Below, in pieces: positions 1-12,089 of a stretch of 12,280 nucleotides of DNA (within the stretch, counting starts at the first letter, position 1; the number at the start of each line of letters is the position of its first letter). The DNA is taken from contig JAGHAJ010000041.1 in assembly GCA_021161545.1 (NCBI GenBank), positions 1 through 12,280 on the forward strand, given 5' to 3'. The position numbers and the translations under genes were made by a program. The notes under the pieces are model-generated. The model did not search any database and was not told the origin of the DNA. It was given only the letters and a program-made list of their open reading frames with translations. The stretch comes from Synergistota bacterium (GTDB taxonomy: Bacteria > Synergistota > JAGHAJ01).

Positions 1-2
1 CG

Positions 3-134
3 GGTGATAGGCTTGCAGTTGAGGCGTTGAGAATGATGGAGAATTTTGAGATAACAGTTCTGCCTGTTGTTGACGGAGAAATGCCTATTGGAATGGTTCA
101 CTTTCATGACATATTGAAGGCTGGTATTGTGTGA
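3..134 (+). CDS. kdsD: Arabinose-5-phosphate isomerase, C-terminal CBS fragment (5' truncated by window)
   Basis: Only the last 43 codons are present, read in frame 3 to the TGA at 132-134. The peptide runs from [12 protein letters not shown] through [20 protein letters not shown] to ILKAGIV. This is the end of a second CBS domain as found in KdsD/KpsF/GutQ sugar isomerases (SIS domain plus two CBS domains), where the closing motif is typically G-hydrophobic-hydrophobic-H-hydrophobic-HD-I/L-L-x-A-G. KdsD interconverts ribulose-5-phosphate and arabinose-5-phosphate, the first committed precursor of Kdo. The next gene starts 6 bases downstream and encodes Kdo transferase, which supports the Kdo-pathway reading. 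The SIS catalytic domain lies outside the window, so identity rests on the CBS tail and context. A different CBS protein is possible but less likely. Confidence 0.75.
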
Positions 135-140
135 GGGCAT

Positions 141-1409
141 ATGTATAGGTTTTACCTTGCATTGTACAATGTGGTATTGCATGTGGTCCTGTTTGTGGCC
201 TCCTTTTATTTTATGCTGAAGTATAAAGAGGGTTTTTCTCAGCGAATGGGAGAGGTCAATCCTCCACCAAAGGGGGGTAAGAGGGTATGGGTTCATGCTG
301 TATCTGTAGGGGAGGTTGTTGCGGCTTCCTACCTTGTTGAGAGGTTGAAAGAGATAGTAGTTGATGGTGATATAGTGCTTTCTACAACGACTGTTACTGG
401 CATGAAGACCATAAAAGGGTTGAATCTTCCCGTAGACTTTGCCTTTTACTACCCTGTTGACCTGCCGTTTGCTGTGAAAAGGAGTGTTGAAGCAGTTTCT
501 CCAGATATTGTAATATTTGTGGAGACAGAGCTGTGGCCCAACATTGTAGAGGTTTTAAGCAGAAAGATGGTTCCTTTGACTATGATAAATGGCAGGCTTT
601 CAACTGGCTCTTTTAAGAGGTATAGGTGGGTTAAGCCATTGATAGGGGGGCTCCTTGAGAGGTTTTCACTCCTGTGTATGATATCGAGCAGGGATGCGTG
701 GAGAGTTATCTCCCTTGGTGCACCGCCTCGTCGTGTTAAGGTTATGGGAAATCTTAAACACGGTGCTACCATTCGGAGGGTGGGAGATTCAGATGTGAGC
801 CGCATTAGGCAGTGGCTTAACGTGAGGGAGGGGGAATTTGTATGGGTGGCTGGTAGCACCCATAAAGGGGAAGAAGATGTGATTCTGAAGGTGTTTAGGA
901 GACTTAAATCTAAGTATCCTGAAATCTTGCTTGCGATTGTTCCAAGGCATCCTGAGAGGGGAGATGAGGTTTTCAGGTTGGCTTGTTATTATGGCTTTAA
1001 TGCTGCAAAGAGAAGTGGTATAGTTAAGAGAGATAGAAGGGTAGATGTGGTTGTGGTGGACACGATTGGAGAGCTGTTTGAGATATACGGTGTGGCCACG
1101 GTGGTTTTTTGTGGAGGTAGCTTGGTCCCGAAGGGTGGACAGAACATAGTGGAACCTGCTGTCTGGGGGAAGCCTATTGTTCATGGCGTTTATATGGACG
1201 ATTTTTCGCTGGAGACGGAAGCCCTTGATGGAAAAGGTGCATTTGCTGTGAGGGACGAAGATGAGATGTTCTCTATAATAGATGAATTGTTACAGGACGG
1301 TGGAAAGAGAGAGGAAGTTGGTAGAAATGCTGAAGTAGTGGTAAGACAGTGGGTTACTGGTGTAGATGAGTGTATAGTAGAGATAGATAAACTCTTGAAA
1401 GGGAGATGA
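141..1409 (+). CDS. waaA: 3-deoxy-D-manno-octulosonic acid (Kdo) transferase
   Basis: This 422-residue protein has the usual WaaA/KdtA length (family GT30, GT-B fold). It transfers Kdo, or a Kdo variant, from CMP-Kdo to lipid A precursor at the cytoplasmic face of the inner membrane. Residues about 4-26 form a hydrophobic N-terminal membrane anchor. The HAVSVGE motif (52-58) carries the expected catalytic Glu58. ETELWPN (128-134), NGRLS (150-154), the PRHPERGDEV segment and the C-terminal GGSLVPKGGQNIVEPA segment that binds the CMP donor are all present. The ATG follows the kdsD stop by 6 bases, with GAGG at 133-136 as a close ribosome binding site. Its stop overlaps the next start (ATGA, 1406-1409), implying translational coupling. 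If the next two enzymes make Kdo8N, this transferase would be expected to accept CMP-Kdo8N, which is inference. Confidence 0.95.
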   Translation: MYRFYLALYNVVLHVVLFVASFYFMLKYKEGFSQRMGEVNPPPKGGKRVWVHAVSVGEVVAASYLVERLKEIVVDGDIVLSTTTVTGMKTIKGLNLPVDFAFYYPVDLPFAVKRSVEAVSPDIVIFVETELWPNIVEVLSRKMVPLTMINGRLSTGSFKRYRWVKPLIGGLLERFSLLCMISSRDAWRVISLGAPPRRVKVMGNLKHGATIRRVGDSDVSRIRQWLNVREGEFVWVAGSTHKGEEDVILKVFRRLKSKYPEILLAIVPRHPERGDEVFRLACYYGFNAAKRSGIVKRDRRVDVVVVDTIGELFEIYGVATVVFCGGSLVPKGGQNIVEPAVWGKPIVHGVYMDDFSLETEALDGKGAFAVRDEDEMFSIIDELLQDGGKREEVGRNAEVVVRQWVTGVDECIVEIDKLLKGR

Positions 1410-2605
1410 TTGGTTTGGAATTTGTGCTGCGTATGACGCCTCATGTGAGGTTTGGTAGAGGTGCTATCAAGTATGCTGCTGATGGCGTGAAAGAGCTCGG
1501 TGGTAAAAGGGTGCTGGTGGTTTCTGATAGGGGGGTTCAGAAGGTTGGTATAACTGATAGGTTGGTTGATATACTCCGTGGTGGTGGTTTAGATGTCTTT
1601 GTCTTTTCGGATGTTGTGCCGGAACCACCCGTTTATGTAGGTGATAATGCTGCCAGTATGGCAAAGGAAGTGGATGCTGATGTGATAGTGGGAGTGGGTG
1701 GCGGCAGTGCCATGGATGTTGCAAAAGCAGTGGCAGTCTTGGTTACCAACGGAGGGAAGGTGGAAGATTACCAGGGAGTTAACAAGGTGCCATCAAGGGG
1801 TCTCCCAAAGATAGTAATACCGACCACTGCAGGCACTGGTTGTGAGGTAACGTGGACAGCGGTCTTTAGCAATCCGGAGAAGAAGACAAAGGGTGGAATA
1901 AACTCCCCCTATCTTTACCCGGAACTTGCCATACTCGACCCTGAATTGACGCTTTCGCTCCCGCCTCTTATCACTGCATCTACAGGTCTTGACGCTTTTA
2001 CGCATGCAATAGAGTCTTACATAGGTAAGGCAGCCACGACAATAACCAAGTTGTTCTCAATCAGCGCGATGGAGCTCATATACAACAACATAGTGAAGGC
2101 AGTTCAGTCTCCCGACAATATAGAAGCCCGTGAGAAGATGCTTTATGGTAGCTTTCTTGCTGGTGTTGCCCTGAGCAATGCTGGTGTTGGTGCTGTGCAT
2201 GCCATGGCATATCCATTAGGATCTTTCTATAACATACCACACGGTGCTGCAAATTCCATACTACTACCCTATGTGATGGAGTTCAACAAGGATGTTTGCG
2301 TAGATGAATTTAAGGACATTGCCTATGTTATGGGTGAGAAGGTGGATATGATGCCTGGATGGGAGGTAGCAGGAAATGTGGTAGATAACCTTCATCTGCT
2401 TAAAGATAAGATAGGCTTGAACATGACACTCTCTATGCTTGGTGTGGAGTGGGAAAGGATACCAGAGCTTGCAGAAGCGGCACTGAAAGTGGATAGACCT
2501 ATAGCCAATAACCCCAGACTCATTACCAAAGATGATATCATCAGTATATACGAGGAGGCTTATGGGGTGGAGGATTTCGAAGAAGAAGATTTCGAGGAGG
2601 TGTAG
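1406..2605 (+). CDS. kdnB: Iron-type alcohol dehydrogenase, probable Kdo C8 dehydrogenase (KdnB)
   Basis: This is a 399-residue group III (Fe-dependent) alcohol dehydrogenase. The NAD-binding GGGS loop is at 98-101 and PTTAGTGCE at 139-147. The metal ligands read as Asp196, His200 (LDAFTHAIES), His265 and His279, the family DHHH pattern. Alone it could be any Fe-ADH (lactaldehyde, propanediol or butanol type). Its position, overlapping waaA by 4 bases and followed 3 bases later by a DegT-type aminotransferase, matches Shewanella oneidensis KdnB/KdnA. There, KdnB oxidises the C8 hydroxyl of Kdo to an aldehyde that KdnA then aminates. The start is uncertain: the ATG at 1406 abuts its GGGAG (1401-1405), while an in-frame TTG at 1415 has a 9-base spacing. 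The C-terminus carries a duplicated acidic DFEEE tail whose codons also form the next gene's Shine-Dalgarno sequence. Confidence 0.72.
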   Translation: MIGLEFVLRMTPHVRFGRGAIKYAADGVKELGGKRVLVVSDRGVQKVGITDRLVDILRGGGLDVFVFSDVVPEPPVYVGDNAASMAKEVDADVIVGVGGGSAMDVAKAVAVLVTNGGKVEDYQGVNKVPSRGLPKIVIPTTAGTGCEVTWTAVFSNPEKKTKGGINSPYLYPELAILDPELTLSLPPLITASTGLDAFTHAIESYIGKAATTITKLFSISAMELIYNNIVKAVQSPDNIEAREKMLYGSFLAGVALSNAGVGAVHAMAYPLGSFYNIPHGAANSILLPYVMEFNKDVCVDEFKDIAYVMGEKVDMMPGWEVAGNVVDNLHLLKDKIGLNMTLSMLGVEWERIPELAEAALKVDRPIANNPRLITKDDIISIYEEAYGVEDFEEEDFEEV

Positions 2606-2608
2606 TTT

Positions 2609-3814
2609 ATGGGCGGTAGAGAGCTAATAGGCGAGGATGAACTTAAGGAGCTGAAAGAGGTAATAGAGCACGGCATACTGATGAGGTATGGCTTTCATGA
2701 ACAGAGGAAAGGGGTTTACAAGGTAAAGGAGCTTGAGGATGCCTTTAAGGAGTATATGGGTGTGAAGTACGCACTTGGTGTAACATCTGGCACTGCTGCA
2801 CTGAGGGTAGCAATGGCTGCACTTGGTATAGGAGCTGGAGATGAAGTAATAGTTCCGTCTTTCACCTTTGTTGCCACCATAGAGGCAGTCATAGAGAGCA
2901 ATGCCATACCTGTGATAGCCGAGATAGATGATACATTAAATATAGATCCTGATGATGTAGAAAGGAAGATAACCGAATATACAAAGCTGATAGTCCCTGT
3001 CCACATGATAGGCACTCAAGCGGATATGGACAGAATAATGGCTATTTCGCACAAGTACAACATACCTGTACTTGAGGATACTCCTCAGGCGTGCGGAGGG
3101 AGTTATAAAGGCAGGAAAGTAGGGACATTTGGAGACATAGCTACGTTTAGCTTTGACTTTTATAAGCCCGCTACCAGTGGTGAAGGTGGAATACTCATCA
3201 CTAATGACGATAGGCTTTATAAGAGAGCAGAGTGGTATCACGACCACGGTCATACCCATGATGCTCCAACAAGGGCGCTTGATGAACACCCTATACTTGG
3301 CTTTAATTACAGGATGGGTGAACTTCAGGCGGCTGTTGCGCTTGCACAGTTTAGAAAGATAGACGAAATAAGCAGGGTGCAGAGGGAGAACAAGTATAAA
3401 ATAAGAGATGCAATAAAGGAGATAGAAGGTATCACGGTAAGGCGTGTCCTTGACGAGGAAGGTGACATTGGATATGGGCTTACATTTTCTTTGCCAACAG
3501 AGGAGAAAGCAGTAAAATTCCAAGAAGAGCTCCAGAAGGAGGGAGTCTCTACCGACCTTTTGGGTAAGAATAAATGGCACTTTGTGGCTAATTGGGAGCA
3601 CATTCTCCAGCACAGGACTGCTTCAAAGGTGCACTGCCCATTTGATTGTCCTTTGTATAAGGGCAAATATTCAAGGTTTAGGAGAGATGATTTCCCTCAG
3701 TCTTCAGCGATACTTAACAGAACACTTAGCATGGGTATAAATTATTACATGACTGATTCCGAGATAGAGCATATAGTGGAAGCTGTAAGAAGGGTGGCAG
3801 AAAGGGTACTTTGA
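2609..3814 (+). CDS. kdnA: DegT/DnrJ/EryC1 PLP aminotransferase, probable Kdo8N synthase (KdnA)
   Basis: This is a 401-residue fold-type I sugar aminotransferase. TSGTAALRVA (59-68) is the phosphate-binding loop and PSFTFVAT (83-90) a family motif. Asp157 in VLEDTPQ would contact the PLP pyridine nitrogen, and Lys186 in SFDFYKPATSGEGG would form the internal aldimine. GFNYRMGELQAA (231-242) is the family's conserved dimer-interface segment. The family aminates keto- or aldo-sugars using glutamate. Next to an Fe-type dehydrogenase and waaA, the best-fitting precedent is KdnA, which aminates the C8 aldehyde of oxidised Kdo to give 8-amino-3,8-dideoxy-Kdo. The ATG has a strong AGGAGGTG (2595-2602) 6 bases upstream, inside the end of kdnB. 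The stop overlaps the next start (TTGA, 3811-3814). Less likely alternatives are nucleotide-sugar aminotransferases, since the usual partner reductase or epimerase genes are absent here. Confidence 0.72.
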   Translation: MGGRELIGEDELKELKEVIEHGILMRYGFHEQRKGVYKVKELEDAFKEYMGVKYALGVTSGTAALRVAMAALGIGAGDEVIVPSFTFVATIEAVIESNAIPVIAEIDDTLNIDPDDVERKITEYTKLIVPVHMIGTQADMDRIMAISHKYNIPVLEDTPQACGGSYKGRKVGTFGDIATFSFDFYKPATSGEGGILITNDDRLYKRAEWYHDHGHTHDAPTRALDEHPILGFNYRMGELQAAVALAQFRKIDEISRVQRENKYKIRDAIKEIEGITVRRVLDEEGDIGYGLTFSLPTEEKAVKFQEELQKEGVSTDLLGKNKWHFVANWEHILQHRTASKVHCPFDCPLYKGKYSRFRRDDFPQSSAILNRTLSMGINYYMTDSEIEHIVEAVRRVAERVL

Positions 3815-4887
3815 TACTCGTTCTGGACGATGGTATAAGAGGGCATGTGCATCAGTCTCTGGGGCTGGCACGTGCCCTTGGTTTTCCGTATGAGGTTGTT
3901 TCTATCAGGTGGAAAAAGAAGACAGTTGCAAGAGTTTTGCAGACAAAGAGACTTTCTAAGTCTGTGAATGTAGAGGGTGATTATTATCTTTCTTGGCTTG
4001 AGCGTAATGTGGAGTTTTCTCCAATTCAGCAAGTTCTATCTGGTGGGAATAGAATGTGGCTGGTGATATCTGCTGGCTCAAAGGGTGCACCTGTAAACCT
4101 TGCACTTTCTAAGTTGCTTTCTGCAAAGAGCGTGGTGTGTATGTTGCCCGAACACATAAATCCGATGCTCTTTGACCTTCTCATTCTGCCGGAACATGAC
4201 ATGAAGCCTGGTCTGAGTGGGAATGTCGTTGTCACAAAAGGTGCCTTAAACATGGTTAAGGAGGGTCCACCCCTTAAAGAGAGAGAGAACATTATCTCTG
4301 TCCTTGTGGGAGGTAACGATGCGAACTACAGGTTGACAATTGACTGGGCAGAGGAATTTTCTTCTAATGTCGTTGAGCTTGCAGATAGACTTGGTGCTGC
4401 ACTATGGGTTACAACTTCGAGAAGGACACCTGTGGATGTTGCAGAATACTTATCAAGGAGGATTCTTAGTTATCGTCCGATTGTGGAAGTCGTGCTTGCA
4501 CACAGGACTGACAAGAATCCTGTTCCTGATATGCTTGGCTCTTCTAAGGTTGTGGTTGTCACAGAGGACAGTGTTGCCATGATTTCTGAGGCTGCCTCCA
4601 GCGGGGCAATAGTGTTGGTTGCCCGCGTCGGACATAGAAGTGGACCAAAGCGATGGGTGGATGCCATTCTGGGTAAGGGGATAAAAAAGTTTGACAGATT
4701 TCTTGAGTCCCTGAGAGATGAAGGGTATGTGCATCTTCTGGACAGAGGGAGCTGGAGTAGATATGCCTTTGATGTGGTTGTAAGTACTGATAGGGTAAAG
4801 GTCTTGAGGGAGGCAGAGCGAGTGGCTAATATAATATTGCAGAGGTGGGGTAAGTGTGAGGATATTGCAGGTGTTACCGGAGCTTGA
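3811..4887 (+). CDS. ELM1-family (DUF1022) GT-B-like protein in LPS operon
   Basis: This 358-residue protein belongs to the bacterial branch of the mitochondrial-fission ELM1 family (formerly DUF1022). The family motifs appear in order: an opening DDGIRGHVHQSLGLA (6-20), SAGSKGAP (87-94), VTKGALN (141-147), VLVGGNDANYRL (165-174... approximate), TTSRRTP (201-207) and TEDSVAMISEAASSG (251-265). The family is predicted to adopt a GT-B glycosyltransferase-like fold. Its biochemical role in bacteria is not established to my knowledge, although members often lie near envelope genes. The start is a TTG overlapping the kdnA stop. The opening motif begins at once, so no upstream extension is needed. 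The next gene starts inside its last 32 bases. A role as a sugar transferase or accessory in core LPS assembly is inferred from fold and context only. Confidence 0.85.
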   Translation: MILVLDDGIRGHVHQSLGLARALGFPYEVVSIRWKKKTVARVLQTKRLSKSVNVEGDYYLSWLERNVEFSPIQQVLSGGNRMWLVISAGSKGAPVNLALSKLLSAKSVVCMLPEHINPMLFDLLILPEHDMKPGLSGNVVVTKGALNMVKEGPPLKERENIISVLVGGNDANYRLTIDWAEEFSSNVVELADRLGAALWVTTSRRTPVDVAEYLSRRILSYRPIVEVVLAHRTDKNPVPDMLGSSKVVVVTEDSVAMISEAASSGAIVLVARVGHRSGPKRWVDAILGKGIKKFDRFLESLRDEGYVHLLDRGSWSRYAFDVVVSTDRVKVLREAERVANIILQRWGKCEDIAGVTGA

Positions 4888-5932
4888 ACTTGGCGGGGTG
4901 GAGACATTTGTGGTTCTGCTCTCTAAGGAGTTGAAGAAACTTGGGCATGATGTAGTAGTTGTTTCATCTGGGGGCAGGCTCGTTGATGAGCTGAAGGAAT
5001 ACGGTGTGGGACACATCAAGTTGCCGGTTTCCAGTAAGAATCCTGTTACGATATGGTATTCTGCGTTTCTTTTGTCTAAGATCCTGAAGGGTCTGCACGT
5101 GGATGTCATCCATGCACACTCGAGAGTGCCTGATTGGGTTGCGTATTTTGTTTCCCTTTTTACCAGAGTGCCTTTTGTGGTTTCTGCTCATGCCTTTTAC
5201 ACACCTCACTGGGGGAGCAGGATTGTGGCTAAGGCGGATAGGGTTATCTGTGATAGTGTATCCGTTGGGGAATATGCGGTTGAGAGACTTGGTGTTTCAA
5301 GGGATAAGATAAGAGTGGTATATAATGGCATAGATGTGAAGAGGTTTGAGGATGTAAAACCTCCGTTTTCGAACCCTCCTTACAGTATCGGAACGGTGGG
5401 CAGACTTGCGCCATCCAAAGGTCAGAAAGTTCTGATAGAGGCCTTTGCCAGGCTGCTGAAAGAGGGTCTGGATGTCAGGCTCGTCATAGCTGGTGATGGT
5501 CCCTTAATGGATGAGCTTGTATCTTTATCTGAGTCCCTTGGTGTCTCTGGATATGTTGAGTTTTTGGGGTTCAGGTCGGATATCCCGGATGTCCTTTCGC
5601 AGATAGACCTGTTCGTTCACCCATCTTTGATTCCGGAGCCGCTCAGTATGGCTCTCATTGAGGCGATGGCAGCATCCCGTCCTGTTGTTGCTTCAGGTGT
5701 TGGGGGTTTTAGAGAAGTCATCGTGGATGGAAAGACTGGATACCTCGTTAAACCTGCAAGTGTTGATGAGCTTGCAGATGCTATGAGGAAGATAGTTATA
5801 AATCCCGAAAGTGGGATAGAGATGGGAGAAAACGGCTTAAAGAGGGTGAGGGAGCTTTTTTCATCTGATGTAATGGCAACCAAGATGCTGGAGGTGTATG
5901 GTGAGTTCGAGGGCGCTAATAGTGAGGTATAG
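4856..5932 (+). CDS. GT4-family glycosyltransferase
   Basis: This is a 358-residue retaining GT-B glycosyltransferase of family GT4. The N-terminal acceptor domain opens with MRILQVLPELELGGVE, the GGVE loop of the family, and contains IHAHSRVPDW (85-94). The linker VVYNGID (154-160) leads to the donor domain with VGRLAPSKGQKVLIEAF (181-197), IAGDGPLMDEL (211-221) and the EX7E motif Glu261/Glu269 in PEPLSMALIEAMA, followed by the GGFREVI segment. The EX7E glutamates bind the nucleotide-sugar donor. Substrates cannot be read from sequence. Its place between Kdo-modifying and heptosyl-type genes suggests addition of a core or outer-core sugar in the cytoplasm. The start is a GTG inside the preceding gene, preceded by a G-rich GAGGTGGGG, and the 32-base overlap suggests coupled translation. 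The next gene again overlaps its 3' end, by 35 bases. Confidence 0.9.
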   Translation: MRILQVLPELELGGVETFVVLLSKELKKLGHDVVVVSSGGRLVDELKEYGVGHIKLPVSSKNPVTIWYSAFLLSKILKGLHVDVIHAHSRVPDWVAYFVSLFTRVPFVVSAHAFYTPHWGSRIVAKADRVICDSVSVGEYAVERLGVSRDKIRVVYNGIDVKRFEDVKPPFSNPPYSIGTVGRLAPSKGQKVLIEAFARLLKEGLDVRLVIAGDGPLMDELVSLSESLGVSGYVEFLGFRSDIPDVLSQIDLFVHPSLIPEPLSMALIEAMAASRPVVASGVGGFREVIVDGKTGYLVKPASVDELADAMRKIVINPESGIEMGENGLKRVRELFSSDVMATKMLEVYGEFEGANSEV

Positions 5933-6875
5933 TGCTATTGGCGATGTAGTTCTTGCAACGGCTCCAATAGTTGCTTTTGCCAGAGCGTTTCCAGATGCCC
6001 GTGTAGATGTCCTTGCAGGAAGTGTTGCACACACATTGCTTCAGAATAATCCCTATATTACTGAAGTGTTGCCCATTGACCCCAAAAAGGCGTTCTGGGA
6101 AGTGGTTAAAGAGATAAAGAATAGGAGATACAACATCCTTATAAACCTTCAGGATAATAATAGATCAGCCTTCTTGTCCATGTTTTCAGGGGCAGAGATT
6201 AAAGTGGGCTCCCACAGCAGTTGGTCTTTTGCCTATGACCTGTTCGTGAAAGACATAAATGAGAGGAAGCATGCTGTTGACTTCTACTATGATATCCTTT
6301 CGTTGGTGGTTCCCAATGCCCTGAAGGTTCTTCCTTGGATTTACCTCCTACCGGAAGAGGTGGATGCTGCAAGAAAGATGCTAAAGGACATGGGTGTGGG
6401 TGATAGATTTGTCTGCTTTAATCCTGCTGTTAGCTGCGTTAGTAGGGAGTGGTTGCCGGAGTATTATGTGGAGTTGGGTATATACATTCGTGATAGGGGA
6501 TATGATATAGTATTATTAGGGGGACCTTCAGAACATGATATAGAGCTTTGTGAGAATATAGCATCTGGTGTAGGTGAAGGTGCTTTTTCGCTGGCAGGTA
6601 GCCTGACTTTGAGGGAGCTTGCTGCTGTTTCGAGCCTGTGCAAGCTGTTTTTCACTGGTGATACCGGTCCCATGCACATTGCAGCTGCTGTTGGAACCAG
6701 AGTTATAGCGTTTTTTGGTCCTTCTGACCCTGTCAGGGCGCATCCTCTTGGCGATATGCATGAGGTATTTGTGAGCGATTTACCCTGTGTGGGTTGCTAC
6801 AAAAAGGAGTGTGAGACGAGAAAGTGTATGCGATTGATAACGCCTCGGGTGGTGTTGAACCGATTAGGTTTCTGA
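5898..6875 (+). CDS. GT9-family ADP-heptose:LPS heptosyltransferase-like protein (first copy)
   Basis: This is a 325-residue GT9 protein of the WaaC/WaaF/WaaQ type, which transfers L-glycero-D-manno-heptose from ADP-heptose to the Kdo or heptose region of core LPS. The N-terminal domain begins RALIVRYSAIGDVVLATAP, with the family Gly15-Asp16 acceptor-site Asp. The linker FNPAVSCVSREWLPEYY (172-190) is a diverged form of the family's nucleotide-binding segment. The donor domain has LLGGPSEHDIELC (206-218), SLAGSLTLREL (231-241) and TGDTGPMHIAAAVG (253-266), followed by FFGPSDPVRAHP. The C-terminus has four cysteines (297, 300, 305, 310) in a PCVGC-x4-C-x4-CM pattern, typical of WaaF-like members. 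The ATG has GGAGG just upstream, inside the preceding gene, and a GTG one codon later is possible. Whether it adds heptose I or II cannot be decided here. Confidence 0.88.
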   Translation: MVSSRALIVRYSAIGDVVLATAPIVAFARAFPDARVDVLAGSVAHTLLQNNPYITEVLPIDPKKAFWEVVKEIKNRRYNILINLQDNNRSAFLSMFSGAEIKVGSHSSWSFAYDLFVKDINERKHAVDFYYDILSLVVPNALKVLPWIYLLPEEVDAARKMLKDMGVGDRFVCFNPAVSCVSREWLPEYYVELGIYIRDRGYDIVLLGGPSEHDIELCENIASGVGEGAFSLAGSLTLRELAAVSSLCKLFFTGDTGPMHIAAAVGTRVIAFFGPSDPVRAHPLGDMHEVFVSDLPCVGCYKKECETRKCMRLITPRVVLNRLGF

Positions 6876-7885
6876 TAGTTACTGGCTTTTGTGGGATAGG
6901 CGATGCACTGTTTATCTCTCCCGTTGTAGAGACGTTAAAGGGAGTCTATCCAAATTCTTACATTACGGTGTTGACGAGGAATTTTCCATGGGTTGAAGAG
7001 ATATATGGGGGTATGCCAGCTGTAGATGATATCTTTGTTTATGATTATGAGAGAAAAGGAGGGGTCCATAGAGGTATCAAAGGCATACTTCGCCTCAGGC
7101 GAGAGCTTTTGCCAAGAAGGATAGATGTTGCCATTATCCTTCATCACACCTTTAGGTCTGCCCTTGTCGCTTACCTCTCTGGTGCTACTGTTAGAGTGGG
7201 ATATGATACGGATTACAGGCGTATATTTTTAACGAAATACCGTAAGGAGCCGAATCTGGAAGGTGTATGGTATTATCTTTTGCTACTTGAATTACTTGGT
7301 ATAAAAAGGAAGGATTTCGTTAAAGAGCTTAAGTGGAAGGTGCCGAATTTGGACTTTTGTAAATTTGTGAAGGATGTGAATAAACCCTATGTGGTTTTTA
7401 TACCTACGACGAGCTGGGCTCTCAAAGACTGGCCTGTTGACTACTACCTGTGGTTCCTTGAAAAACTTCGTCAGGAAAGTATTGATGTCTATGTGGTTGG
7501 TAAGGGAGAAAGGGCTAAGGAGGCTGGTAGGCTACTCGGTGATGAGGGTGCTATAGACCTTGTTGATAAGTTTGATACCCTTTCTGAGCTGAGCTGTCTC
7601 CTTCGGGATGCAGCGGTTGTGGTGGGTGGGGATACTGGAGTGCTTCATCTTGCTTCTGCTATGGGAGTGAGAGTTGTTGCTCTCTGGGGACCTACATCTC
7701 CCTTTAAGATGGTTGGCCGTATGCATAATAGGCTGGATTTTTACCTTTCTTACCCCTGCTATAGAATATGCAGGAAGACACTCGCAGATAGCTGCCCTTA
7801 CAAGAGTGAGTGTATGAAGTCCATTAAACCCCAGTGGGTATACGCTGCGGTGATGAAACACCTGAGAGAGCATAGGAGCTCTTAA
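6824..7885 (+). CDS. GT9-family heptosyltransferase-like protein (second copy)
   Basis: This is a 353-residue GT9 protein diverged from its neighbour. RFLIVTGFCGIGDALFISPVVE (15-36) carries the Gly-Asp pair. IPTTSWALKDWPVDYYLWF (193-211) is the linker with the W-x3-DWP element of heptosyltransferases. VVGGDTGVLHLASAMG (266-281) and LWGPTSPFKM form the ADP-heptose site. Four C-terminal cysteines (312, 316, 324, 330) again follow a WaaF-like PCYRIC-type pattern. An in-frame TGA at 6812-6814 means the GTG at 6824 is the most upstream usable start, giving a 52-base overlap with the previous gene. A weak AGGAG lies 14 bases upstream. The recognisable domain starts only at residue 14, so the N-terminus is loosely supported. 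It is the last gene of the LPS operon. The two different GT9 genes in tandem suggest successive heptose or heptose-like additions. Confidence 0.85.
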   Translation: MYAIDNASGGVEPIRFLIVTGFCGIGDALFISPVVETLKGVYPNSYITVLTRNFPWVEEIYGGMPAVDDIFVYDYERKGGVHRGIKGILRLRRELLPRRIDVAIILHHTFRSALVAYLSGATVRVGYDTDYRRIFLTKYRKEPNLEGVWYYLLLLELLGIKRKDFVKELKWKVPNLDFCKFVKDVNKPYVVFIPTTSWALKDWPVDYYLWFLEKLRQESIDVYVVGKGERAKEAGRLLGDEGAIDLVDKFDTLSELSCLLRDAAVVVGGDTGVLHLASAMGVRVVALWGPTSPFKMVGRMHNRLDFYLSYPCYRICRKTLADSCPYKSECMKSIKPQWVYAAVMKHLREHRSS

Positions 7886-8107: not shown

Positions 8108-8803
8108 ATGGGGAACGGAAGCGGTTTATACCTTAAGTCTTTGAGGGAGCAGGTTTATGAGTACTTGAGAAGGCAGATGAATACCGGTGAGCTGAAGCCG
8201 GGGGAGTTTATAGATATCAAAGAGATAAGCAGACAGCTTGGCATAAGCAAGACACCTCTCAGAGACGCACTCCTTCAGCTTGAGGTGGATGAGTTCGTTA
8301 AAATACTGCCAAGGCGTGGTGTTATGGTAAATACACTCACGATGAAGGATATAAAGAACTACTATGAGATAATCGGAGCACTTGAGGGAGTTGCTATCAT
8401 CTCTGCGTTTGACAGGTTGACCACTCAGGATGTAGACAGAATGGCTGAGTTGAACACGCAGATGAAGGATGCTATAGACAACGATGATTTTGATACTTAT
8501 TACGACAGAAATTTGGAGTTCCACAATACCTACATTCTGCTCTCCGATAACGAACGGCTGATAAAGACTGTTACCAGACTTAAGCAGAGACTCTATGACT
8601 TTCCGAGGAGAAAAGGCTTTGTGAAGGAGTGGGAAATGACCTCTATAGGGGAACACAATAGCCTCATAGAGTTGCTCTATGCAGGCGATGCAAAGGCAGC
8701 AGCTGATTTCATCAGGGATGTCCACTGGTCATTTAAGGTGCAGGAGAGGTTTATTAAGAGATATTACTTTGCATACAAAGTGGTGAATCATATCGAGGCG
8801 TAA
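8108..8803 (+). CDS. GntR-family transcriptional regulator with FCD ligand domain
   Basis: This is a 231-residue FadR-subfamily GntR regulator. The winged helix-turn-helix covers about residues 10-78. LREQVYEYLRRQMNTGELKPG leads into the recognition region EISRQLGISKTPLRDALLQLE (39-59) and the wing PRRGVMVN (68-75). The all-helical FCD domain follows. His139 (LEFHNTY), His183 (GEHNSL) and His206 (RDVHWSF), with an Asp near 133, fit the metal-binding site of FCD domains, which usually sense small carboxylic acids. The ATG has a good GGAGG (8096-8100) with 7-base spacing. The gene is the first of a likely three-gene operon and starts 24 bases from the palindrome in its promoter, so it probably represses itself and the glycyl radical enzyme genes until the substrate or a relative is present. 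The ligand is unknown. Confidence 0.9.
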   Translation: MGNGSGLYLKSLREQVYEYLRRQMNTGELKPGEFIDIKEISRQLGISKTPLRDALLQLEVDEFVKILPRRGVMVNTLTMKDIKNYYEIIGALEGVAIISAFDRLTTQDVDRMAELNTQMKDAIDNDDFDTYYDRNLEFHNTYILLSDNERLIKTVTRLKQRLYDFPRRKGFVKEWEMTSIGEHNSLIELLYAGDAKAAADFIRDVHWSFKVQERFIKRYYFAYKVVNHIEA

Positions 8804-8808
8804 AGGGG

Positions 8809-9720
8809 TTGAATATAGTGTCTGGAGGGATAATCTTTGATATAAAAAGATTTTCTGTACATGACGGTCCCGGGATACGCACCACGATTTTCTTTAAAGG
8901 ATGTCCCCTTTCCTGCTGGTGGTGTCATAACCCGGAGAGTCAGAGTATGAATCCTGAGCTTATGCTCTGGCCAGATAGGTGTATAGGGTGTGAAACATGC
9001 ATAAAAGTTTGTCCTAACAAGGCGGTTTCTCTTATCGATAACATGATAGTAACGAATAGAAAAAAGTGTGTAGCGTGTGGCGTGTGTGCTGATAACTGCC
9101 CTGCCTCTGCGAGGGAGATTGTGGGAAGAAGGGTCTCTGTTGAGGAGCTGTTGCGAGATATAGAGAAAGATGTGACGTTTTATGATGAGTCTGGCGGAGG
9201 TGTTACCATTTCTGGTGGTGAACCCTTCTTGCAGTGGGAGTTTTTAGAGAATCTGCTGAAGGAGTGTAGGGAGAGGGAGATACATACGGCCGTTGATACC
9301 ACAGGTTATGTTGATTCAGATGTAATCCTCAGGGTTAGCGATGTTATAGAACTCTTTCTTTATGACCTAAAGCTGATGGATGATAGCAAGCATAAGTACT
9401 ATACAGGTGTCTCCAACGGGCTGATTTTGAAAAACTTGAAGCTGCTTGACTCTGCAGGTAAAAGAATATTTGCACGTTTTCCCCTTATTCCGGGTATAAA
9501 CGATGATGAAGATAATATCCGTAAGACGGCTGAGTTTGTTTCGGGATTGAGTTCTGTTGAGGAGATAGATGTTCTTCCCTATCACAAGGGAGGTGAGCAG
9601 AAGGCCAAGAGGATAGGAAAGCGGTATCTCTATAATGGTGAGCAACCAACAGATGAAGTGGTTGAGCGGGTAGTGAATCTACTTCAGGGTTATGGCCTGA
9701 AGGTGAAGATAGGAGGTTGA
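8809..9720 (+). CDS. Glycyl-radical-enzyme activating enzyme (radical SAM, ferredoxin insert)
   Basis: This is a 303-residue radical-SAM activase that abstracts hydrogen from the conserved glycine of its partner enzyme using S-adenosylmethionine and reduced [4Fe-4S]. The GRE-activase signature FSVHDGPGIRTTIFFKGCPLSCWWCHNPES is present, with cluster cysteines 32, 36 and 39 in CX3CX2C. A ferredoxin-like insert follows with two CX2CX2CX3CP sets (58/61/64/68 and 87/90/93/97), predicting two further [4Fe-4S] clusters. PFL activase lacks this insert; activases of the diverse GREs such as diol dehydratases, decarboxylases and fumarate-adding enzymes have it. GGEP (136-139) is the SAM-binding motif. 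The start is a TTG 5 bases after the gntR stop with AAAGGGG upstream; a GTG three codons later is a possible alternative. It reads directly into the GRE gene, its presumed substrate. Confidence 0.95.
   Translation: MNIVSGGIIFDIKRFSVHDGPGIRTTIFFKGCPLSCWWCHNPESQSMNPELMLWPDRCIGCETCIKVCPNKAVSLIDNMIVTNRKKCVACGVCADNCPASAREIVGRRVSVEELLRDIEKDVTFYDESGGGVTISGGEPFLQWEFLENLLKECREREIHTAVDTTGYVDSDVILRVSDVIELFLYDLKLMDDSKHKYYTGVSNGLILKNLKLLDSAGKRIFARFPLIPGINDDEDNIRKTAEFVSGLSSVEEIDVLPYHKGGEQKAKRIGKRYLYNGEQPTDEVVERVVNLLQGYGLKVKIGG
9711..9716 (+). promoter_or_regulatory. Shine-Dalgarno sequence deciding the GRE start
   Basis: A perfect AGGAGG sits in the last codons of the activase gene, 9 bases before the ATG at 9726. 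An in-frame TTG at 9717 directly abuts it and could not be used with normal spacing. This favours the ATG, making the GRE 787 rather than 790 residues. Confidence 0.85.
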
Positions 9721-9725
9721 TTTTC

Positions 9726-12089
9726 ATGAACGAGAGAGTGAGAAAGTTAAGGGAGCAGAGTGTTAATACGGAGCCTTATGTCTCTGCAGAGAGGGCTATC
9801 CTCATTACGGACTTTTATCAGAGTGAGGAAGCAAAGGGGCTTTCTGCACCAATGTTGCGTGCACGTGCATTCAAGTACATAATGGAGAACAAGGAAATAT
9901 GCATAAATGATGGAGAGTTAATAGTTGGAGAAAGGGGACCTGCGCCAAAAGCTACCCCTACATATCCAGAACTCTGTTGCCATTCTCTTGAGGACCTTGA
10001 GATACTTGATAAGAGAGAGAGAACGCCGTTCAGGGTTAGTGAGGAAGTCAAAAAGGTTTACAAAGAGAAGATAATACCGTTCTGGAAGGGCAGGAGTATG
10101 AGAGATATGCTGTTTAATGCTATGCCAGAGGAGTGGAGAAAGGCGTTTGACGCTGGTGTCTTCACAGAATTCATGGAACAGAGGGCACCTGGACATGCAA
10201 TCCTTGACGATAAGATATACCATAAGGGTTTTCTTGATTTTAAGAAGGATATCGCGGAGGCAAGGAGAAATCTGGACTTCTTCAATGACCCACTTGCCTA
10301 CGACAAGGACCAGGAGCTTCAGGCTATGGATGTTGCTGCAGATGCACTCATACGGTTTGCTGAAAGGCATGCAGAGAAAGCAAGAGAGCTGGCGGAGAGG
10401 GAGCAAGACCCTGTCAGGAAGCAGGAGCTCCTGCAGATTGCAGAGATATGTTCGTGGGTACCTGCGCATCCGCCGAGGACATTCTGGGAAGCCCTGCAAA
10501 TGTATTGGTTTGTCCATCTTGGATTTGTCACCGAATACAATCCGTGGGATTCGTTTAACCCCGGGAGATTGGACCAGCACCTGTATCCATTCTACAGGAG
10601 AGATGTAGAGGAGGGAAGGCTCACGAAGGAGAAAGCAAAAGAACTCCTCGAACTGTTCTGGATAAAATTCAACAATCAGCCAGCACCTCCGAAGGTTGGT
10701 ATAACCGAGGAGCAGAGTGCCACATATCAAGACTTTGCCCTTATAAATGTAGGTGGTGTTAAAAAAGACGGTTCTGATGCAGTTAACGAGCTTTCTTACC
10801 TCATACTGGATGTGGTTGAGGAGATGCGGCTCATACAGCCGAGTGCGTGTGTCCAGTTGAGCAAAAAGAACCCGGATAGATTCCTTAAACGGGCTATCAG
10901 GGTGGTTAAAGCGGGGTTTGGACAACCTTCGATATTCAACACTGATGTGATTATTCAGGAATTCTTAAGGACTGGTAAGAGCATAGAGGATGCACGGCTT
11001 GGGGGCCCAAGTGGATGTGTTACCATAAGTGCGTTTGGTAAGGAGAGTTGCACACTCACGGGGTACATGAATTGGGTGAAGATATTTGAGCTTGTCTTGA
11101 ACAACGGTGTGGACCCTCTAACAGGCGAAGTGGTAGGGATACAGATGGGGGACCCCAGAGACTTCAAGACATTTGAGGAGCTCATGGATGCTTACAAAAG
11201 GCAGTTAAAATACTTTGTGGATGTGAAGATAAAGGGTAACAACATTATAGAGAGGCTTTATGCCCAGCACCTTCCTGCACCTTACATGTCTATCCTATTT
11301 GACGACTGTATCAAAAAAGGTGAAGACTACCACGCTGGGGGGCCAAGATACAGGACTACATACATACAGGGAGTTGGTATAGGTAGCCTTACCGATTCTA
11401 TGGCTGCAGTGAAGTATCATGTGTTTGATAAGAAGACGTTGTCCATGGAAGAACTCCTTGATGCCATGAAGAACAACTTTGAAGGAAAAGAGGAGCTCCG
11501 CCAAATACTGGTGAACAAGACACCCAAGTATGGAAATGATGATGACTATGCAGACTCTATTGCTACAGAGCTGTTTAATGCCTACTTTGATGTGCTGGAC
11601 GGTAGGCCGAACACAAAGGGTGGAAAGTACAGAGTCAACCTATTGCCTACTACTGTGCACATATACTTTGGAAAGGTAGTAGGTGCAATGCCCAACGGCA
11701 GGAAGGCTCATCAGCCACTATCAGATGGTATATCCCCTACGCAGGGTGCAGATGTAAATGGCCCAACGGCAGTGATAAAGTCCGTTGCCAAGATAGACCA
11801 TGCACGCACTGGTGGGACACTTTTGAACCAGAAGTTCATACCTCAGGTCTTGGAGACAGAAGAAGGTATAGAGAAACTTGCCCATCTGGTAAGGACATAC
11901 TTTAGATTTGATGGTCATCACATACAGTTTAACGTTGTGACTGCAGATACCCTCAGGGAAGCACAGAGGAAACCTGAGGAGTACAAGGACCTTATAGTCA
12001 GAGTGGCTGGTTACAGTGATTACTTCTGTGATATAGGTAGGGACTTACAGGAAGAAATAATAGCGAGGACAGAACAGGAGGGTTTTTAG
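9726..12089 (+). CDS. Glycyl radical enzyme (PFL-like), substrate unknown, Cys-Val-Thr active-site variant
   Basis: This 787-residue protein has the PFL domain and a C-terminal Gly-radical domain. Numbering from the ATG, RVAGYSDYF (759-767) carries the radical Gly762 and GGPSGCVTISAFGKE (426-440) carries the thiyl Cys431. It therefore uses a glycyl/thiyl radical pair in an anaerobic cytoplasm and is activated by the upstream radical-SAM protein. Length and spacing resemble glycerol dehydratase-type GREs. It is not a pyruvate formate-lyase, which has adjacent Cys-Cys. It also departs from eliminating GREs (diol dehydratases, choline lyase, hydroxyproline dehydratase), whose Cys-Val-Glu supplies a catalytic base: here residue 433 is Thr. 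Where many of those enzymes show a GHS element before GRxDQ, this one reads WDSFNPGRLDQ (274-284). A fumarate-adding, decarboxylating or novel activity remains possible. No extra subunits or pathway genes are adjacent. Confidence 0.88.
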   Translation: MNERVRKLREQSVNTEPYVSAERAILITDFYQSEEAKGLSAPMLRARAFKYIMENKEICINDGELIVGERGPAPKATPTYPELCCHSLEDLEILDKRERTPFRVSEEVKKVYKEKIIPFWKGRSMRDMLFNAMPEEWRKAFDAGVFTEFMEQRAPGHAILDDKIYHKGFLDFKKDIAEARRNLDFFNDPLAYDKDQELQAMDVAADALIRFAERHAEKARELAEREQDPVRKQELLQIAEICSWVPAHPPRTFWEALQMYWFVHLGFVTEYNPWDSFNPGRLDQHLYPFYRRDVEEGRLTKEKAKELLELFWIKFNNQPAPPKVGITEEQSATYQDFALINVGGVKKDGSDAVNELSYLILDVVEEMRLIQPSACVQLSKKNPDRFLKRAIRVVKAGFGQPSIFNTDVIIQEFLRTGKSIEDARLGGPSGCVTISAFGKESCTLTGYMNWVKIFELVLNNGVDPLTGEVVGIQMGDPRDFKTFEELMDAYKRQLKYFVDVKIKGNNIIERLYAQHLPAPYMSILFDDCIKKGEDYHAGGPRYRTTYIQGVGIGSLTDSMAAVKYHVFDKKTLSMEELLDAMKNNFEGKEELRQILVNKTPKYGNDDDYADSIATELFNAYFDVLDGRPNTKGGKYRVNLLPTTVHIYFGKVVGAMPNGRKAHQPLSDGISPTQGADVNGPTAVIKSVAKIDHARTGGTLLNQKFIPQVLETEEGIEKLAHLVRTYFRFDGHHIQFNVVTADTLREAQRKPEEYKDLIVRVAGYSDYFCDIGRDLQEEIIARTEQEGF

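Follow-up and report, generated by a model that had tools for sequence, protein, structure and literature searches.

Does a lipopolysaccharide (LPS) operon of a Synergistota bacterium encode the means to replace 3-deoxy-D-manno-octulosonate (Kdo) in the inner core by its 8-amino form, Kdo8N? The question is raised by a stretch of 12,280 nucleotides (hereafter the window; contig JAGHAJ010000041.1 of assembly GCA_021161545.1, C28 in our numbering, from a genome of 1.58 Mb that is 82% complete), in which genes for a group III (iron-type) alcohol dehydrogenase, here called ADH2, and a DegT-type aminotransferase follow waaA, the Kdo transferase gene. Almost every LPS has the same first sugar on its lipid A. 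Kdo8N, whose C8 carbon resonates near 44-45 ppm, has been called a hallmark of Shewanella (PMC6357163), and a first-pass annotation of the window proposed that its two genes encode exactly the pair, KdnB and KdnA, that converts Kdo to Kdo8N in Shewanella oneidensis.

Our analysis supports a Kdo-to-Kdo8N role strongly for the aminotransferase and well for the pair as a whole; that this is exactly the Shewanella pair is either wrong or unproven. We conclude that the operon very probably makes and installs Kdo8N. The data establish intact genes in one operon, membership of the aminotransferase in KdnA, linkage and co-occurrence of ADH2 with KdnA, pocket residues common to ADH2 and KdnB, and co-segregation of a clade of the sugar-activating enzyme KdsB.

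The aminotransferase and its operon

The aminotransferase gene (2609..3814; all window features lie on the + strand) encodes a pyridoxal phosphate (PLP)-dependent protein of family PF01041 (E 9.5e-93), proposed to convert 8-oxo-Kdo to Kdo8N. When it was compared by phmmer with all PDB chains, the top match was Shewanella KdnA (5k8b, E 3.5e-102), 49 orders of magnitude ahead of the next structure, a perosamine synthase (2e-53). A 71-row tree places the protein in a 40-row KdnA clade, with a support of 99 in the SH-like approximate likelihood ratio test (SH-aLRT), separate from ArnB, WecE and the other DegT proteins of the same genome. The PDB ranking and the tree position rule out a nucleotide-sugar aminotransferase such as ArnB, WecE or perosamine synthase. 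Judged by its sequence, the window protein is KdnA, because both its nearest characterised relative and its clade are KdnA. Its PLP-binding lysine is K186, as the first-pass annotation had read it.

Alignment also yielded a signature, DHGHxH, derived in the present analysis, which reads DHGHTH at residues 212-217 of the window protein (3242..3259). It occurs in all KdnAs of the clade except one, a long-branch Prochlorococcus protein, thus in each KdnA that is linked to or co-occurs with the dehydrogenase, and is absent from neighbouring KdnA-like proteins of Chloroflexota, Actinomycetota, Bacillota and Planctomycetota. The KdnA-like aminotransferase of Prochlorococcus (L045 2040-3200) is 44% identical to the window protein, lacks DHGHxH and lies beside an apparent NeuB-type synthase; it possibly puts an amino group on another ulosonic acid.

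The open reading frames (ORFs) of the operon are uninterrupted, and their coordinates agree with those of the first-pass annotation. The window opens with the final 43 codons of kdsD (1..134; arabinose-5-phosphate isomerase, SIS plus CBS; TIGR00393 341.8 bits, cut-off 203.7), followed by waaA (141..1409; PF04413 E 5.5e-54; 332.6 bits against NF004388, under the equivalog cut-off of 438), ADH2 (1406..2605; PF00465, PF25137), a proposed Kdo 8-dehydrogenase, and kdnA. The pair thus sits between waaA and the core glycosyltransferase genes with the junctions first described, a 4-base overlap between waaA and ADH2 and a 3-base gap between ADH2 and kdnA. A kdsB gene, which the annotation had suggested seeking upstream, lies on a second contig of the same genome, C253, which has an exact 127-base overlap with the window start, inside kdsD. 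Its gene order is a glycosyltransferase-like ORF, kdsB, kdsA and kdsD, with the remainder of kdsD included. Since the end of C253 overlaps the start of the window, the operon reads kdsB-kdsA-kdsD-waaA-ADH-kdnA-glycosyltransferases, and the combined gene order bears out the claim that isomerase, transferase and modifying enzymes share one operon. The pair is linked to genes of Kdo synthesis, activation and transfer in this genome and in its relatives, and both lpxC and kdsB were found in the window genome.

The partner dehydrogenase and its pocket

The metal ligands D196, H200, H265 and H279, correctly identified at the outset, and a dinucleotide motif are present in the window dehydrogenase. 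Its identity with KdnB is the one detail of the earlier proposal that is not borne out as it stood. The protein is nearest to methanol dehydrogenase, which uses nicotinamide adenine dinucleotide (NAD), and to lactaldehyde reductase (best E 3e-79 in the PDB search), and KdnB (5k8c) ranks 37th among 45 PDB matches (E 4.3e-29). It falls under all NCBIfam equivalog cut-offs (TIGR02638, 335.7 of 523 bits; ErcA, 358 of 550). In a first tree, all 22 window-type enzymes with linkage to KdnA, or co-occurrence with it, group in a single clade (SH-aLRT 96), with the metabolic iron-type alcohol dehydrogenases (Fe-ADHs) of the same genomes outside it; bootstrap support for this clade is weaker, 53/97, in a second, careful tree with different rows. 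The annotation had named trees grouping the dehydrogenase with lactaldehyde or butanol enzymes and the aminotransferase with nucleotide-sugar enzymes as evidence against its reading. ADH2 is indeed lactaldehyde-like overall, yet it forms its own KdnA-associated clade and has a KdnB-like pocket, and the aminotransferase groups with KdnA.

ADH2 and KdnB have in common D80, T151, G164, N166, V261 and G276, each of which is rare in other Fe-ADHs. Control Fe-ADH clades of 3-6 rows have 0-1 such positions in common with KdnB, and clades of two rows have 3-4, as expected from their small size. Thr151 (codon 1856..1858; Asn151 in the Escherichia coli lactaldehyde reductase FucO) is found in all ADH2 and KdnB rows and in no other Fe-ADH compared; Val261 (codon 2186..2188; FucO Leu259) is conserved in every row of ADH2, KdnB and ADH3, the last being a third partner type. 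Both positions belong to the pocket: FucO Asn151 and Leu259 line it, and the N151G/L259V mutant widens it for bulky substrates (PMC10324492, in which residue numbers run one higher than in the MG1655 FucO protein used for comparison). By alignment, then, ADH2 carries KdnB-type pocket residues, which distinguish it from other Fe-ADHs.

How the two enzymes came by these residues is a separate matter, compatible with a Kdo8N function either way. Simple orthology to KdnB is unsupported, given the low rank of KdnB in the PDB search and the separate clade. Certain non-orthology, as a quick tree had suggested, was dropped after approximately unbiased (AU) tests: a tree uniting ADH2, KdnB and ADH3 in one clade is not rejected and is slightly more likely (p-AU 0.552), and it remains slightly better after removal of ten pocket columns (p-AU 0.587). 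These tests speak against the possibility that ADH2 and KdnB are independent recruitments of two Fe-ADH lineages to the same step, with convergent pocket residues. In favour of it are the branch of about 2 changes per site on which KdnB and ADH3 firmly join (100/100) and the far closer identity of ADH2 to FucO-type enzymes; we regard independent recruitment as a tentative option, somewhat on the doubtful side.

The founding work reportedly described KdnB as an oxidase that uses oxygen; a structure solved later reportedly contains tightly bound NAD(H) and zinc. If oxygen were required, KdnB would be unsuited to anaerobes and an enzyme of NAD-dependent type such as ADH2 would suit them. KdnB-type genes also occur in likely anaerobes (L039, L060), however, so that this contrast between the two enzymes should not be pressed. 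KdnB is listed as FeADH3/cd08184, with no other role known (PMC5125639). The only other Fe-ADH-like ORF of the window genome (L028 1381-2772, G000:C221) has 463 residues and adjoins an RpiR-like regulator.

Co-occurrence, KdsB and the proposed pathway

KdnA, scored as present at E<=1e-60, was found in 32/61 genomes of the phylum Synergistota. A match to a Shewanella KdnB search at E<=1e-30 accompanies it in 32/32 KdnA-positive and 0/29 KdnA-negative genomes (Fisher p 4.6e-18, for a threshold set after the data were seen and for non-independent genomes). Desulfobacterota have KdnA in 50/198 genomes, 29 of these 50 with ADH2 directly upstream; three have a weaker, KdnB-like match on the other side of kdnA, and several run ADH2-kdnA-kdsB with waaA next. 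Three arrangements bring kdnA near kdsB in the genomes examined: LpxK fusion-kdsB-kdsA-kdsD-waaA-ADH2-kdnA, of which the part from kdsB onward recurs in several families; kdsB-ADH3-kdnA; and kdsB adjoining a Bacteroidota-type KdnA. Where KdnA is unlinked in Bacteroidota, a KdnB is encoded at another place in the genome. The conserved gene order, across many families and a second phylum, and the co-occurrence rule out chance adjacency of the pair. The Synergistaceae locus L042 nests among the sampled same-phylum relatives of the window genome in the dehydrogenase, KdnA and KdsB trees, which makes Synergistota the most likely phylum. One genome, G025, has both an ADH2 adjoining kdnA and, elsewhere, a KdnB-like gene 43% identical to Shewanella KdnB (G025:C1:991732 and 1851482, L223).

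KdsB splits along the same line. Ten KdnA-positive Synergistota genomes (G009, G017, G024, G029, G038, G040, G043, G045, G050, G052) have two KdsBs, one adjoining kdnA and the other ordinary (L204, L205, L207, L208, L210, L211, L212). All KdsBs that are linked to kdnA, or are the sole copy in a KdnA genome, fall into one clade of the KdsB tree, KdsB-2 (24 rows, support 99), which includes the KdsB of the window genome; second copies and the KdsBs of KdnA-negative genomes fall outside, and the clade is found in KdnA-positive genomes only. At the position of E. coli Gly233, 24/24 KdsB-2 rows have glutamate, as do 7/9 KdnA-linked KdsBs from other phyla, that of Shewanella among them. In ordinary KdsBs the residue is glycine, serine or asparagine, and the solved KdsBs whose alignments were inspected have glycine. 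Two residues further on lies E. coli Asp235, taken to be the counterpart of Aquifex D219, which binds the catalytic metal (PMC3149649). The glutamate could meet the C8 amine. D77 was rejected as a specific marker; it also occurs in the K5 capsule enzyme 1gq9 and in 3pol/4fcu, so Glu233 alone is kept as a candidate.

We propose that KdsD and KdsA, followed by a phosphatase, would make Kdo, and that ADH2, with NAD(P)+ and a bound metal, would oxidise the C8 hydroxyl of free Kdo to the aldehyde, 8-oxo-Kdo. KdnA, with PLP and probably glutamate as amino donor, would transaminate this to Kdo8N, which a dedicated KdsB of the KdnA-associated clade would activate as its cytidine monophosphate (CMP) sugar and WaaA would attach to lipid A. 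We take over from Shewanella the identity of substrate and product, the sequence of steps and the incorporation of Kdo8N into LPS; the LPS would presumably bear a positive charge.

Several points weigh against this assignment. In overall identity, FucO (37%) is closer to ADH2 than KdnB is (31% over 244 residues). A few KdnA genomes are without a recognisable ADH2 or KdnB, such as G277, which has no Fe-ADH match at all, and Desulfobulbus alkaliphilus G067; conversely, a few KdnA-negative genomes (G096, G108, G111, G114) have ADH2-like matches of 42-44%. Relatives of KdnA that lack DHGHxH are found in bacteria without LPS, which means that the wider aminotransferase family does other chemistry. 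No KdsC above the cut-off was found in the window genome, at 82% completeness, and a literature search found no LPS data for Synergistota. Both G067 (L036) and G277 (L289) have kdnA near kdsB; in them, sequence may be missing or the dehydrogenase may be of a third kind.

Could the genes do something else? The C8 amine might be made on a related substrate (CMP-Kdo, lipid A-bound Kdo or another 8-carbon ulosonic acid), or might afterwards be acylated and carry no charge. Such variants would accord with the KdnA-like relatives outside LPS operons, including the one beside the NeuB-like gene in Prochlorococcus, and with ADH2 pocket residues that are common with KdnB yet not identical throughout. 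The kdsB linkage, seen in two phyla and in three arrangements, points instead to a step before CMP activation, as does the co-segregation of a KdsB clade, and we consider these variants unlikely. It is far less credible still that a fermentative alcohol or lactaldehyde enzyme of the ordinary kind and a nucleotide-sugar aminotransferase are neighbours by accident. The top PDB and NCBIfam matches of the dehydrogenase, to methanol dehydrogenase, lactaldehyde reductase and ErcA, would suit that view, all of them far under the NCBIfam equivalog cut-offs; it is opposed by a dehydrogenase clade of its own tied to KdnA, by gene order kept in two phyla with perfect co-occurrence, and by an aminotransferase that groups with KdnA rather than ArnB or WecE.

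Taken together, these observations make it probable that an anaerobic lineage far removed from Shewanella has a Kdo8N pathway, in which the dehydrogenase is divergent and a KdsB co-segregates: a known pathway in variant form, and one far wider than described so far. A broader model, which we offer tentatively and hold to be slightly short of even odds, is that Kdo8N serves widely as an alternative inner-core sugar and has a full track of its own: KdnA, its partner ADH2 (or KdnB), and a KdsB-2 whose glutamate contributes to recognition of the amine. Because about ten of the sampled Synergistota genomes also keep an ordinary KdsB, a single cell could make LPS of both kinds, with Kdo and with Kdo8N.

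Neighbouring genes and known systems

Downstream of kdnA, the operon continues with genes for an ELM1-like protein (3811..4887; PF06258), a GT4 family glycosyltransferase (4856..5932) and two GT9 heptosyltransferase-like proteins (5898..6875 and 6824..7885), the last three assigned by family search. The ELM1-like protein, whose gene directly follows kdnA in several of the phylum's families, is probably a core glycosyltransferase. At the other end, the ORF before kdsB was considered as lpxB and rejected; Pfam gave no LpxB, and its counterpart in relatives is the C-terminal half of an LpxK-fused protein. In L199 (1559-3868) and relatives this is a 770-residue protein, an LpxK N-terminus fused to a glycosyltransferase-like C-terminal half, encoded directly before kdsB; the contig of the window genome holds the C-terminal part only. 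Window positions 8108-12089 encode a GntR/FCD regulator, a glycyl-radical activase and a trans-4-hydroxy-L-proline dehydratase (NF043068 1317.9 bits, cut-off 1100), a hydroxyproline fermentation unit adjoining the LPS operon. The dehydratase fits a host that ferments amino acids, as this one presumably does.

No NCBIfam model naming ADH2 or KdnA proteins was among the matches, and since NCBIfam is without a model for either, pipelines label them as a generic alcohol dehydrogenase and aminotransferase. If our interpretation holds, inner cores that bear an amine are common in Synergistota, Desulfobacterota and Bacteroidota, and more than one form of dehydrogenase serves them, together with a sugar-activating enzyme of their own. 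The Kdo8N prediction is open to routine LPS mass spectrometry on cultured strains.

How does the window system compare with characterised ones? Its aminotransferase resembles S. oneidensis KdnA (8-amino-3,8-dideoxy-alpha-D-manno-octulosonate transaminase) in full-length alignment from residue 1, the PLP lysine, DHGHxH, clade and kdsB linkage. It differs in sequence (about 43% identity), in its place in a part of the clade that is paired with ADH2 rather than KdnB, and in lying inside a waaA operon. The KdsB of the Shewanella kdn cluster likewise has kdnA linkage and the glutamate two residues before the metal-binding aspartate, but falls outside the KdsB clade of the window genome, and the common glutamate may be parallel. 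With S. oneidensis KdnB (3-deoxy-alpha-D-manno-octulosonate 8-oxidase), ADH2 shares the group III fold family, the metal ligands, a GGG motif, and the six pocket residues plus Y269; it differs in overall identity and clade, and also in gene order, with ADH2 upstream of kdnA but kdnB downstream of it in Shewanella. FucO is the closest E. coli relative of ADH2, with the same NAD-type aspartate at position 41, but its Asn151, Phe254, Leu259 and His267 are threonine, leucine, valine and tyrosine in ADH2.

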